NCBI GenBank assembly: GCA_913055155.1
Contig: CAJXJR010000003.1
Span: forward strand, 62,001-126,000
Direction of reading: 5' to 3'
Length of the DNA: 64,000 bases
Source of the DNA: an uncultured Erythrobacter sp.
GTDB lineage: Bacteria; Pseudomonadota; Alphaproteobacteria; Sphingomonadales; Sphingomonadaceae
Shown: piece after piece, positions 1,999 through 44,508 of the stretch
Layout: each line of letters begins with the position of its first letter
Position numbering within the stretch: the stretch's first letter is position 1
Position numbers and translations under genes: made by a program
Notes under the pieces: model-generated
Told to the model about the DNA's origin: nothing
What the model saw: the letters and a program-made list of their open reading frames with translations, nothing else
The model's database searches: none

Positions 1999-3045
1999 AT
2001 GTCTTTCCGCCCCTCCGCAAACGTACAGGCCCTTGCAGAAGCCATCAGGCCAGCACTCGGCCTTGGCGCCAGCGGAACGCCCCCGCCACCGGACTTGCGG
2101 TTTATCGCGGAGCGCCACCGCGTAACGCTTCTGCTTCACCATGCCTTGGGCCTGCGCGGTCATCGCGAAGACGAAGAACTGCTGTCCCAAATCGCCAGGC
2201 TCGCACAGCTGAACGCGCGCGGGACATTGCTTCAGAAAGCAGCGGGAGCGAGACTGGAACGGCTTCTGGACGAGCGCGGCATCGACAGCATTGAAATCAA
2301 GGGGTGGCGCCTGGGGCACCTGCTCTATGGCGAGAATACCCTCCGGCAATCGCGCGATGTCGATGTCCTCTTGCGGCCGGAGCAGATTTTCGAGGCGGTC
2401 GAAGCGGTTGTGGAGGCCGGCTTCAAGAATATGCGAGGCGAACCGCTCAAGCCGTCAGTTGCGCGGGCCATGCTGCGGTTCCATCGAGAGGTGGAGGTGC
2501 GCGACCCGCGTTCGCGGGTTACGATCGAACTCCATTCGCGGTCTCTGGAAAATCCACCGGCGGGCTGGAGCGACACGACAATGCTGGCAGACCCGCTGGA
2601 CCTCTCCAATCCCGAATACGTCCTGTACCTGATCCTTCATGGAGCCGGATCGAACTGGAACCGGCTGAAGTGGTTGGCCGATCTTGCCATGATCGCCCAA
2701 CGTGTTGAAAGCGATGTCATGCTCCAGGTCGTGGACCTAGCGCGCGCCCTTGATTGCCTTCCTGCAGTTTCAGCCAGTTTCCGCGCCTGCGGCGCGATCT
2801 GGGGGGAAGGCCTTGTTGGCGAATGGCTTGCCGCAGCGGCGCTGCGCGTGGACGATGAACGCACCCAGTTGCACCTCCAGGCATTCGCCCGCGCGCTCAA
2901 TCGTGAAGATTCCCCATCGAAAATGGAATTGACGGCAAGGCGGCTGGAGCTGGTTCGGGATTCGCCAATTTGTGGCGAGAGGCCGCTCCCGCACCTCAGC
3001 TCCATTGGAAAGCGCACGGCGATGTGGCTTCTTCGCCGTGTCTAG
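1999..3045 (+). CDS. Nucleotidyltransferase-fold protein (NTP_transf_5 type)
   Basis: A 348-residue protein resembling the uncharacterised nucleotidyltransferase family PF14907. The core is IEIKGWRLGHLLYGENTLRQSRDVDVLL: a conserved KG, then R..RDVDVL in the place of the paired acidic metal ligands of nucleotidyltransferases. The rest is helical, with FHREVEV and IELH strands in the middle. Family members often sit in polysaccharide or lasso-peptide clusters, but no such genes are near, so substrate and pathway are unknown. I chose ATG 1999 (MSFRPSANV); an in-frame upstream start at 1969 would add ten non-conserved-looking residues. It stands alone between tRNA-Ser and a long gap. Confidence 0.7.
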   Translation: MSFRPSANVQALAEAIRPALGLGASGTPPPPDLRFIAERHRVTLLLHHALGLRGHREDEELLSQIARLAQLNARGTLLQKAAGARLERLLDERGIDSIEIKGWRLGHLLYGENTLRQSRDVDVLLRPEQIFEAVEAVVEAGFKNMRGEPLKPSVARAMLRFHREVEVRDPRSRVTIELHSRSLENPPAGWSDTTMLADPLDLSNPEYVLYLILHGAGSNWNRLKWLADLAMIAQRVESDVMLQVVDLARALDCLPAVSASFRACGAIWGEGLVGEWLAAAALRVDDERTQLHLQAFARALNREDSPSKMELTARRLELVRDSPICGERPLPHLSSIGKRTAMWLLRRV

Positions 3046-3083
3046 CCGCCGGGTGCCACACCGCACGGTGGAAACCGAACGCT

Positions 3084-3105
3084 CCGGGCCTCTTGCTTGG
3101 CCCGG
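3084..3105 (+). terminator. GC hairpin after the nucleotidyltransferase gene
   Basis: CCGGGCC (3084-3090), loop TCTTGCTT, GGCCCGG (3099-3105): a perfect 7-base-pair stem 38 bases after the stop codon. No T-run follows, so termination strength is doubtful; it may only protect the mRNA 3' end. Confidence 0.4.
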
Positions 3106-3424
3106 TCAGGCTGCCTGATAAGCCAATGGATGGTGGGCTACTGAACGGCCGGCTCATGGCCCATTCGAAAAGGGCAAGATCGAATTCGCTGTCGTGCGAT
3201 GGGCTTGACGGTGCGGCCCACCGGCGGCGCCAGCCTTGGCCGTCCTTGGCTGCGGATAGCTACTGACAACAATCCTCCTGTCACTGCACTTTTACCGCCG
3301 GCCTCAACCAAGCCCGGTAAATTCAAACGCATTCGAATGGCTGTAAGGCGGATCAAGGCTCTATCAACTAAAAGGCCGACCTGATTGCGCCCTGGCCGCG
3401 AGAGGCATTTCCCAGCACCAACCA

Positions 3425-41209: not shown

Positions 41210-42162
41210 GGACGCTGCTCGCAGCCATCGCGGTGATGCTGGCTGTGGTGCTGCCTGCGCAAGCGCAAACGTCCGAAGAGCTTTCCGCACAGGACCTGCG
41301 CCTTGCCCGCATTGCCGATGCCATGCTGCTGGCCAATGCCCGGCTATGCCGACAGACCATGCCGGTAACCGGCATGATACTGCACAGCGCAGACCAATAT
41401 GGCGAAGACGCCCAGGCGCTGTTTGCCAACAGTTCGCTGGCAGTTGCCTCGGTGGTTCCGGGATCGGCGGCGGACCTGGCAGGGCTGCGCGCCAATGACG
41501 GTATCGTCGGGATTTCAGGTCGGGAGGTAGCCGCCATGCACCCGAATGGAGGCGACCATCTGCGTGAAGTCGCTTTCTTCGATTTGACGAGCCTGCCCGA
41601 AGAGAGCACTGTCGATCTTGTCGTTTCACGGGCAGGAGACCGCTTTGCGGTCAGTCTTGCGGCGCCACGCGGCTGCCGCTCGCTGGTCGAAATCCTTGTT
41701 GCCGATGGACCTAACGCGCGTTCTGATGGCCGCGTGATCCAGCTGCAATATCACTTTGCCGCCAGCCTGACCGATGAACAGATCGCCGTGGTGCTGGCGC
41801 ACGAACTGGCGCACACGGTGTTGGAACATCGGCGTCGCAAGGAAGCCGCCGGCATCGATAACGACAGCATCATGCGCCACGTCGGGCGCAACCAGCAGGT
41901 CAACCGGCAGGCAGAGGTTGAGGCAGACAGGCTGTCCGTCCACCTGCTGGCCAATGCCGGTTACGATCCGGCCATCGTCGCCAATTTCTGGCGTTCAGCC
42001 GAAGGCGAAGAGGCGGGCGGCGGGTCGATGCCGAGTTTCGTCTACCCTTCGCAAGCCGCACGGGCAGAAATCGCCGGCCGCGAAATCGCCATGTACCTGC
42101 CGCTGCGACAGGGGCCTACATGGCCAGGACACCTGCTGGAACTGCGTGATCGCGCCTTCTAA
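41206..42162 (+). CDS. Secreted M48-type metalloprotease with PDZ domain
   Basis: 318 residues with a signal peptide (MRTLLAAIAVMLAVVLPAQAQ), a PDZ-like module (~75-150: SLAVASVVPGSAADLAGLRANDGIVGISG) and a zinc protease domain with H199-E-L-A-H203 and the downstream glutamate in AEVEADRLSVHLLANAGYDP. It resembles periplasmic M48 proteases involved in envelope quality control, but the PDZ lies before, not after, the protease domain. It overlaps the preceding gene (ATGA), though a metabolic link is not obvious, and its last four bases overlap the opposing flavin reductase. Confidence 0.85.
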   Translation: MRTLLAAIAVMLAVVLPAQAQTSEELSAQDLRLARIADAMLLANARLCRQTMPVTGMILHSADQYGEDAQALFANSSLAVASVVPGSAADLAGLRANDGIVGISGREVAAMHPNGGDHLREVAFFDLTSLPEESTVDLVVSRAGDRFAVSLAAPRGCRSLVEILVADGPNARSDGRVIQLQYHFAASLTDEQIAVVLAHELAHTVLEHRRRKEAAGIDNDSIMRHVGRNQQVNRQAEVEADRLSVHLLANAGYDPAIVANFWRSAEGEEAGGGSMPSFVYPSQAARAEIAGREIAMYLPLRQGPTWPGHLLELRDRAF

Positions 42163-42680
42163 TCCTCGCGGCGGGAGCGTTGCGGCGCTTCGCTGATATC
42201 GATGTAATTGCGGTCGAAATAGGTCAGCGGCGTGGCGTCATGACGATGCTTGGCCGCCAGCAGTTCGCCGATGAAGATCGTATGCGTGCCGAACTCGTGG
42301 CGATGCACGGTCTTGCACACCAGGCTGGATTGCGCGGAAGCGAGTACCGGAACCCCGTGGTCGTCGGTCCAGTCGCCTACCGCGAAGCGATCGGCGTCGG
42401 GCTGCATGAAGTGCTCCGCCACGTCGCGATTGCCCAGTCCCAGCACGTTGACGCAGAAGCGCTCGGCCCGTTCCAGCGGGTCATGCAGCGATGCAGCGCG
42501 ATTGACACAGACCAGCAGCGAAGGCGGCTCGAAACTGAGCGAACTCACTGCGGTGGCAATGATTCCGTAGCGTTGCCCGGCGTGACTGGTGGTAACGGCA
42601 TAGACCGTCGCGGCGACGTGGCGCATCGATTCCCGGAAGGCTTCGACCAGCTCTTCGTGGCTCTGTCCTGCATCGCTCAT
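42159..42680 (-). CDS. Flavin reductase (FMN-binding split-barrel)
   Basis: 173-residue flavin reductase-like protein, which uses NAD(P)H to reduce free or bound FMN/FAD for partner oxygenases. Typical sequence: FRESMRHVAATVYAVTTSHAGQRYGIIATAVSSLSFEPPSLLVCVNRAASLHDPL, then FCVNVLGLGNRDVAEHF and a metal-like C-terminal IFIGELLAAKHRHDATPLTYFDRNY. The 104 bases between its start and the opposing HTH-RibB gene contain a single palindromic site, so both promoters are likely controlled together. No oxygenase is in the window. Confidence 0.9.
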   Translation of the reverse strand: MSDAGQSHEELVEAFRESMRHVAATVYAVTTSHAGQRYGIIATAVSSLSFEPPSLLVCVNRAASLHDPLERAERFCVNVLGLGNRDVAEHFMQPDADRFAVGDWTDDHGVPVLASAQSSLVCKTVHRHEFGTHTIFIGELLAAKHRHDATPLTYFDRNYIDISEAPQRSRRED

Positions 42681-42733
42681 GCGTGCTCTTTGCGGTTTCG
42701 CGAGTCGCGGCGCAAGGGGGAATTTGCAGGCCC

Positions 42734-42741
42734 AATGTGAT
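42734..42741. promoter_or_regulatory. Extra half-site AATGTGAT
   Basis: Repeats the right arm of the palindrome at 42756-42773 in the same orientation, 32 bases (about three helical turns) away. The matching left arm is absent here. It may be a weak second site for the same protein, placed on the same DNA face. Confidence 0.4.
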
Positions 42742-42755
42742 ATGCCGGACTTGCG

Positions 42756-42773
42756 ATCACATTATAATGTGAT
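42756..42773. promoter_or_regulatory. 18-base perfect palindrome and two-way -10 element
   Basis: ATCACATTATAATGTGAT is fully self-complementary and lies 11 bases before the HTH-RibB start and 75 bases before the flavin reductase start. Its centre ATTATAAT contains TATAAT on the forward strand (42763-42768) and on the reverse strand (42766-42761), so it can serve as the -10 of both divergent promoters; -35 sequences are poor on either side. A protein bound here would cover both. The fused HTH domain of the downstream gene product is the obvious candidate ligand; this is inference. Confidence 0.65.
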
Positions 42774-42784
42774 ACACCGACGGC

Positions 42785-44089
42785 ATGAACGACATCACCA
42801 TCGCCCGAGTCCGCGAAATCATCGCGGAAGGAAAGATGACCCGCGCCGGACTTGCCCGCGCTGCCGGTCTGCACGCAAACACCCTTCGCGACTGCAACGA
42901 AGACGGCTGGAATCCCACTGCCGACACGCTGGGCAAGCTCGACCGCTTCTTGACGGAGAACGACGATTCGCCCGTGCTCGTCGGGATCGAGGAAATTATC
43001 GAGGAAGCGCGCAACGGCCGCATGTACATCCTTGTCGATGACGAGGACCGCGAGAACGAGGGCGACCTCATCATCCCGGCGCAGATGGCAACGCCCGATG
43101 CGGTCAATTTCATGGCCACCCATGGCCGCGGCCTGATCTGCCTTGCCCTTACCCGCCAGCGAGTCGATGCGCTGGGCCTGGAACTGATGAGCCGCAAGAA
43201 CCGCACGCGGCACGAAACCGCCTTCACGGTTGCCATCGAGGCGCGCGAAGGCGTGACAACCGGCATCAGTGCCGCAGACCGTGCCCGCACCGTCTCGGTA
43301 GCCATCGATGCCAGCAAGGGGCCGGACGACATCGTCACCCCCGGCCACGTCTTCCCGCTGGTGGCGCGCGAAGGCGGCGTGCTGGTACGCGCCGGCCACA
43401 CCGAGGCTGCGGTGGACATCTCGCGCCTTGCCGGCCTCAACCCCAGCGGCGTGATCTGCGAGATCATGAACGAGGACGGGTCGATGGCGCGGCTGGAAGA
43501 CCTGATCGGCTTCGGACGCAAGCACGGCCTGAAGATCGGCACCATCCGCGACCTAATCGCCTATCGCCGCAAGCACGATCACATCGTGGAAAAGCGGGCG
43601 GAGGAACGCTTCACCAGCAACTGGGGCGACGATTGGCGCGCGGTCGCGTTCTACAACACCGCGACAAAGGGTGAGACCATGGCGCTGGTGAAAGGCCATA
43701 TCGACTCATCCACCCCTACGCTGGTGCGCATGCACGCGCTGTCGATCTTCGACGATGTCTTCGCCCGCAAGTCGGAACGCAGCGGCCTTCTGGAAGGCGC
43801 GATGAAGATGATCGCGGAGGAGGGATCCGGCGTGGTCGTGCTGATCAACCGGCCCAATGCCGATTTTGCCTCGCGTTCGGTCAAGGCGCTGGGCAAGCAG
43901 GCGCCGCGTGAAGCCAACCCCATTTCCGAGGAACAGCGCGACTATGGCGTTGGTGCGCAGATCCTGACAGAACTGGGGGTCAGCGACATGATCCTGCTTA
44001 CCAACACCAGCCATTCCCTTGTCGGGCTGGATGGCTATGGCTTGTCCATCGTCGGCGAGAAGCCGATTCGTATCGAGGAGAACGCCTGA
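42785..44089 (+). CDS. ribB: HTH - DHBP synthase (RibB) - degenerate RibA-like domain fusion
   Basis: 434 residues in three parts. Residues ~5-58 form a helix-turn-helix of the lambda-repressor kind ([53 protein letters not shown], shown in overlapping parts: [19 protein letters not shown] is the core). Residues ~65-270 are 3,4-dihydroxy-2-butanone-4-phosphate synthase, with R89-E90...D94 in [11 protein letters not shown]205 (AGHTEAAVD) and E226 (CEIMNEDG) as active-site residues. Residues ~275-434 look like GTP cyclohydrolase II, but the three zinc cysteines are gone: SECLTGD and RCDC positions read ALSIFDD and SERS. So only the RibB reaction is expected. Coupled to ribH by TGATG. The N-terminal HTH is the odd part. 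Confidence 0.9.
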
Positions 44090-44508
44090 TGGCCCGCTTT
44101 CTGATCGTCGAGGCCCGGTTCTACGGCCACCTGAACGACATGCTGGTCGCAGGTGCAACGGCCGCACTGGAAGATGCCGGCCACCAGGCCGATGTCATCA
44201 CCGTGCCCGGCGCGCTGGAAGTGCCCGGTGCCATCGCCCTGGCAGCCGAAAGCGGGCAGTATGACGGCTTTGTCGCCATCGGCGTGGTCATCCGTGGGGA
44301 AACCTACCATTTCGAAATCGTGGCCGGGGAAAGCGCGCGCGCCATCATGGCATTGACCATGGATGGCATCGCCATCGGCAATGGCATCCTGACCACCGAG
44401 AAGGAGGCCCAGGCGCTGGTGCGCGCCGACCCGGCGCAAAAGAACAAGGGCGGCGAGGCGGCACAGGCCGCGATCCGCCTGCTGGAACTGCGGGAGCAAT
44501 TCGCATGA
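44089..44508 (+). CDS. ribH: 6,7-dimethyl-8-ribityllumazine synthase
   Basis: 139 residues. Condenses the RibB product 3,4-dihydroxy-2-butanone 4-phosphate with the ribityl-aminouracil from RibD. Substrate motifs [17 protein letters not shown] and the [23 protein letters not shown] segment with the catalytic histidine are intact. It shares a base with the RibB stop and overlaps the aldo/keto reductase start (ATGA). ribD, riboflavin synthase and an active RibA must be elsewhere. Confidence 0.95.

Follow-up and report, generated by a model that had tools for sequence, protein, structure and literature searches.

The open reading frame at 42785..44089 on the forward strand of the window (the whole stretch of 64,000 nucleotides of Erythrobacter DNA that was analysed) encodes a protein of 434 residues, in which a helix-turn-helix (HTH) domain precedes a DHBP synthase domain (RibB) and a GCHII-like tail, and which is called HTH-RibBX here. 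We consider it quite probable that HTH-RibBX is a bifunctional enzyme-repressor of ribBX-ribH, with DNA binding and repression predicted from sequence comparison and with a possible ligand. An enzyme that represses its own operon is expected to have a conserved operator in its promoter that goes together with its DNA-binding domain, and a putative operator of just this kind is found at ribBX. The features of the locus are collected in Table 1.

Table 1. Features at the HTH-RibBX locus; positions are those of the window.
Feature	Position	Strand	Basis and remarks
Flavin reductase-like gene	42159..42680	-	Pfam PF01613, E 6e-40; divergent, common intergenic region with ribBX
Upstream half-site CAATGTGAT	42733..42741	+	spaced by 32 bp, roughly three turns of the helix, from the putative operator's right half
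Putative -35 element TTGCGA	42751..42756	+	directly ahead of the core; last base common with the 18-bp palindrome
Putative operator	42756..42773	strand-neutral	perfect 18-bp palindrome ATCACATTATAATGTGAT
Putative operator core TCACATNNNNATGTGA	42757-42772		16 bp within ATCACATTATAATGTGAT
Putative -10 element TACACC	42773..42778	+	directly after the core; first base common with the palindrome
Cro/C1 (XRE)-type HTH	42785..42976	+	about residues 1-64; sub-threshold Pfam matches, invariant residues, AF2 model, fold search
Presumed recognition helix	about residues 29-37		LHANTLRDC; within the HTH domain
DHBP synthase (RibB) domain	42989..43564	+	residues 69-260; Pfam PF00926, E 6e-84
X domain (GCHII-like tail)	43595..44059	+	residues 271-425; PF00925, E 6e-35
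ribH (lumazine synthase)	44089..44508	+	Pfam PF00885, E 4e-41; start codon overlaps the ribBX stop codon

Domain architecture and spread of HTH-RibBX

The RibB domain covers the PF00926 profile from position 1 to 191 of 191, and the reading frame scores above the cut-off of the RibB model TIGR00506 (NCBIfam) and far below that of the RibA model TIGR00505 (NCBIfam). Two 10-residue RibB motifs, an acidic one and one containing HTE, are both intact; we presume their residues to have a catalytic role. In an alignment of 32 rows the acidic motif is invariant, and RAGHTEA.VD is invariant or nearly so. PDB entries matching the domain are 6mnz, 4i14 and 1g57, and the sole PF00926 match in the 3.1-Mb genome, which is rated 100% complete, is this reading frame. 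Judged by its full-length domain and conserved motifs, the RibB part is a DHBP synthase, with predicted catalysis on ribulose 5-phosphate.

In the tail, S320, E331 and S333 occupy the three cysteine positions which we take to be the zinc ligands of GCHII, and among the 32 rows a single Cys at these positions occurs in one row only. A separate GCHII (RibA) is encoded on another contig of the same genome. Since the zinc cysteines are replaced in the fusion and kept in this separate RibA, the tail is assigned, by its residues, as an X domain as in RibBX. The separate RibA (contig C7, locus L002, about 119777-120280, minus strand) carries approximately 150 residues without a Pfam match ahead of its GCHII domain. 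An earlier note, made from this DNA alone, had read the protein as an HTH in front of an intact DHBP synthase with a degenerate RibA-like tail, and our analysis confirms the order of the domains as well as the degeneration of the tail.

The evidence for the N-terminal domain is of several kinds. Residues 1-67 give Pfam HTH hits below the curated cut-offs, and a minority of the 32 relatives matches HTH families at E 0.01, with 4.4e-6 as the best value, while most stay sub-threshold. A regulator family of PHROGs is matched at E 0.00088, and relatives differ very little in the presumed recognition segment. The predicted model of the domain resembles lambda-repressor-like folds with modest scores and has no helix assigned at residues 27-45; the model of the full-length protein is poor (mean pLDDT 68.1), and the HTH profile matched no solved structure among the PDB sequences. 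The search of the N-terminus against HTH families, suggested in the same note, gave sub-threshold scores in the window protein and better ones in some relatives, with folds that match modestly.

Within the family Sphingomonadaceae, a RibBX match was obtained in 196 of 199 genomes. Among the 150 matches listed, 143 begin at residue 1-8 and hence include the HTH, and seven begin at residue 65-68; of the 46 matched genomes beyond these 150, four (G007, G091, G114, G187) were seen by other searches. The survey of RibB proteins for this architecture, likewise proposed beforehand, thus recovered it in most of the family matches listed. A wrong start codon as the source of the N-terminal domain is ruled out by the conservation of this part at the protein level in the same 143 of the 150 matches listed.

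Outside the family, the matches listed in 386 class genomes begin at residue 20 or later, mostly at about 55-68, and no HTH was found at RibBX in the eight early-starting class genes checked (L122, L218-L222, L216, L217), two of which, L216 and L217, are HTH-less genes directly after ribE. Searched in the order, a profile of the HTH domain alone had matches in 22 of the 26 genomes from the family and weaker ones in 3 of 73 others. In 397 phylum genomes its strong matches (E <1e-25) were confined to the family, and eight further genomes matched at E 2.9e-6 to 7.7e-4.

A scan of named genomes yielded at least 582 relatives among 594 stretches, and the best 80 of these at least 582 form our named set. 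They are mostly labelled Erythrobacter, Aurantiacibacter, Altererythrobacter, Qipengyuania, Croceibacterium, Novosphingobium or other Sphingomonadaceae, with one labelled Actinobacteria; the nearest relatives among these best 80 belong to Erythrobacter/Aurantiacibacter.

In another family of the order, two genomes encode CoaBC (Flavoprotein + DFP), an FMN enzyme in the synthesis of coenzyme A, as a fusion with a related HTH (L212, 1988-3481, and L214, 2305-3789, both on the minus strand). In 196 order genomes, these two are the only ones among the matches listed that align from residue 1-7, and no operator is recognisable ahead of HTH-CoaBC. Another family of the order also encodes an unfused HTH protein, about 84 residues long (L213, about 3000-3260, minus strand; HTH_31, E 0.0021) that is akin to the fused domain and a possible source of it.

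A candidate operator in the ribBX promoter

The intergenic region ahead of ribBX contains a single perfect 18-bp palindrome, and across the 3.1-Mb genome this 18-mer has no second match within three mismatches. Its core at up to two mismatches lies upstream of 63/63 HTH-bearing genes, namely 30/30 in L004-L033 and 33/33 among L035-L074, where L064 was recognised by inspection only. In the named set it precedes all 79 HTH-bearing genes, 51 without mismatch, 22 with one and six with two; L188 was left out of these 79 because it has too little upstream DNA, and the 63-gene and 79-gene sets partly overlap in genomes. The core is missing upstream of the seven HTH-less loci L035-L041.

Taken alone, the degenerate 16-mer is not rare, as two copies at up to two mismatches occur in the window where 1.22 are expected. 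Chance as the origin of the palindrome is ruled out: it is unique in the genome, it is absent from 100 shuffles of the window, and shuffled upstream regions of the named set contain the core at up to two mismatches in 49 of 3950 cases, against 79 of 79 real ones.

The flanks of the core resemble promoter elements. In 79 aligned upstream regions, the bases T, T and G directly before the core occur 69, 57 and 59 times, and T and A directly after it 71 and 61 times. An ATG lies exactly 29 bases from the core start in about half of the regions (A 41, T 41, G 39 of 79). A simple sigma-70 scan recognised no promoter in the ribBX upstream region. We infer that the putative operator would form the spacer between the -35 and -10 elements of the ribBX promoter. 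As the A of the window's ATG is the seventh base after the putative -10, the ribBX mRNA is possibly leaderless or nearly so, and such an mRNA would have no space for a riboswitch.

The upstream half-site, together with the operator, suggests cooperative binding; many relatives, though not all, have such a half-site or a second full site at a comparable distance. In L022, L024, L025, L026 and L027, two near-palindromes 19 bp apart are found, not a site and half-site at 31-32 bp, so that the operator layout is rearranged in some lineages. Further upstream, several close relatives share with the window a GGCGCAAG block (42709-42716) that is located about 70-75 bp ahead of the ribBX start.

Since the ribH start overlaps the ribBX stop codon, both genes probably share one transcription unit, and ribH is located directly downstream of ribBX in 72 of 80 named loci (76 of which are long enough to tell). 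The flavin reductase-like gene lies divergently within 400 bp in just 30 of 73 named loci, and it is therefore dispensable for explaining the operator. The intergenic region of 104 bp between this gene and ribBX contains the operator, and in close relatives both genes may be co-regulated.

Joint occurrence, regulon size and the FMN riboswitch

To compare the presence of the HTH with that of the operator, we used a maximum-likelihood tree built from 84 RibBX cores; six of 90 loci were dropped from it (L109 and L110, which were too short, and L120, L125, L129 and L130). Both features agree in all 84 rows. The operator is present at 66/66 HTH-bearing family genes and missing at 8/8 HTH-less family genes (best 4-6 mismatches) as well as at all ten outgroup genes of the tree. 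With L120, L125, L129, L130, L216 and L217 added to these ten, it is missing at 16/16 outgroup genes (best 3-5 mismatches). On the tree, the HTH label requires seven changes, at least five of which are forced by well-supported branches. The six dropped loci, checked separately, are all consistent: L109 and L110 have both HTH and exact operator, and both features are missing from L120, L125, L129 and L130.

All eight HTH-less family genes lie directly behind ribE, against none of 73 named HTH-bearing loci, so that loss of the HTH and loss of the own promoter are in part confounded. Of ten family genes in this position, L109 and L110 bear the HTH and an exact operator, and the eight HTH-less ones have no operator. 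Only L109 and L110 separate the position behind ribE from the presence of the HTH.

Of the 199 family genomes, 85 have the exact core and none has its control, the core read backward. From 72 of these 85 genomes, 75 exact sites are listed, and exact sites amount to about one per genome where present. Of the listed sites, 70 lie just upstream of HTH-RibBX (67 within 160 bp and three directly upstream). The remaining five are found about 1.5 kb past the 3' end of ribBX (G103), ahead of a glycine-zipper-like gene (G165), within an open reading frame (G104), in a region that looks phage-like (G101) and within ribBX (G152), where these assignments are our own readings of the open reading frames. 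No large regulon was found among the 75 listed exact sites, and weaker sites were sought in the own genome. With 70 of 75 listed exact sites upstream of HTH-RibBX, the predicted regulator looks close to single-target.

The FMN riboswitch (RF00050) was found neither in the window, nor in its own genome, nor in 118 family genomes searched with stricter filters, in which each of 96 genera is represented by one genome or more; HTH-less family members likewise showed none in this 118-genome search. Among 386 class genomes it occurs in 71, and in none of the six family genomes of that draw. Fusion and riboswitch were found together in no genome examined. As most class genomes without the fusion have no FMN riboswitch either, to say that HTH-RibBX replaces the riboswitch is a proposal about evolution. 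The earlier note had proposed that the enzyme also acts in transcription, controlling flavin supply and replacing the riboswitch. The agreement of operator and HTH and the absence of RF00050 from the family genomes speak for this proposal; its breadth has to be reduced to about one site, at ribBX-ribH, rather than all flavin genes.

Proposed mechanism, alternatives and related systems

According to the mechanism we propose, the RibB domain would produce DHBP, and, RibB being a dimer, it would present two N-terminal HTH domains to the palindrome TCACATNNNNATGTGA in its own promoter. Seated between -35 and -10, the protein would block RNA polymerase and thereby limit transcription of ribBX-ribH; the second half-site lies about three turns further upstream. 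A flavin or pathway metabolite would modulate this action via the RibB or X domain; candidate inputs are the X domain as sensor, ribulose 5-phosphate at the RibB site, or plain protein dose. The X domain makes an attractive sensor, since it has lost the catalytic metal ligands and since, in PMC10012899, it is reported to control RibB activity in Shewanella without having GCHII activity. For physical binding, for repression rather than activation, for the transcription start and for modulation by a metabolite, we infer the arrangement given here.

A separate transcription factor could bind the palindrome, leaving the HTH of RibBX with another role at DNA or none. Other XRE-type regulators are surely present in these genomes, and the tie between HTH and operator is one predicted by comparing genes. 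Such a factor would have to be a single-target regulator that always vanishes together with the HTH, as exact sites number about one per genome, and the agreement of both features in the 84 tree genes and the six dropped ones extends across several independent changes; we regard this explanation as very unlikely. Even further from likely, to a degree that makes it hardly credible, is an N-terminal domain that serves as structural or protein-interaction extension and merely resembles an HTH. The sub-threshold Pfam scores of the window protein and most of the 32 relatives would fit such an extension, as would the stretch of the model without assigned helix, but some relatives do reach 4.4e-6 with HTH families, the recognition segment hardly varies, and the palindrome tracks the domain.

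Binding by HTH-RibBX itself would also be expected if the protein were an activator, or an autorepressor that senses its own dose without a ligand. Negative autoregulation is common in bacterial regulators, as stated in PMC5343134, yet the position of the operator within the putative -35/-10 spacer is that of a repressor, and the X domain, a reported regulator of RibB in Shewanella (PMC10012899), offers a possible sensor. Taken together, an activator or ligand-free dose sensor appears rather unlikely. Beyond the enzyme-repressor of ribBX-ribH that we favour, we tentatively consider a wider reading, possible though short of probable: a family-wide one-gene protein switch that controls the supply of vitamin B2 by feedback, in which the enzyme would sense its own pathway at the RibB site or X domain (flavin, GTP or an intermediate) and repress its own leaderless promoter, whereby the catalytically dead X domain would gain a function, and in which a related HTH would have been fused independently to CoaBC.

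HTH-RibBX shares features with several known systems. RbkR, an archaeal HTH-riboflavin kinase (Rodionova et al. 2017), is described as acting both as gene regulator and as enzyme. Like RbkR, the window protein joins an HTH to a flavin-pathway enzyme; unlike it, the protein is bacterial and has RibB and GCHII-like domains (Pfam) and no riboflavin kinase, the comparison being one of architecture. The FMN riboswitch exerts feedback control of riboflavin genes and differs from HTH-RibBX in being RNA-based, with RF00050 in 0/118 family genomes. PutA, proline dehydrogenase and put repressor, is catabolic and has a ribbon-helix-helix domain, and its substrate drives release from DNA. Both PutA and HTH-RibBX are enzymes at their own operon, which PutA represses according to PMC6978683 and which HTH-RibBX is predicted to repress. 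BirA, biotin ligase and bio repressor, is described in PMC5343134 as a vitamin enzyme with an N-terminal DNA-binding domain and a small regulon; the same paper states that alphaproteobacterial BirA has lost this domain and that BirA autoregulation occurs in Desulfovibrionales only. BirA and HTH-RibBX are alike as vitamin enzymes with an N-terminal DNA-binding domain and differ in enzyme and ligand.

HTH-RibBX also resembles the RibBX proteins of Shewanella oneidensis, Aeromonas salmonicida and Bradyrhizobium, which consist of RibB and a GCHII-like tail without zinc ligands and rely on a separate RibA for GCHII, as far as the available part of PMC10012899 describes them. The window protein likewise has RibB and a GCHII-like tail lacking the zinc cysteines, with a separate RibA in the genome, but adds the N-terminal HTH and the putative operator, neither of which is mentioned for known RibBX in that part of PMC10012899. 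That the earlier note knew of no described HTH-RibB-X agrees with our search of the open-licence literature, where neither an HTH-RibB nor such an operator was found.

Control of riboflavin synthesis in bacteria without an FMN riboswitch is a largely open question. Here, a defined protein, a 16-bp site and a natural control, i.e., family members with neither, make the proposal directly testable, and the pair of operator and HTH might work as a compact flavin-pathway sensor. If the proposal is true, a bacterial flavin-pathway enzyme would join the short list of enzymes that repress their own operon, and the puzzling X domain of RibBX would gain a possible role.
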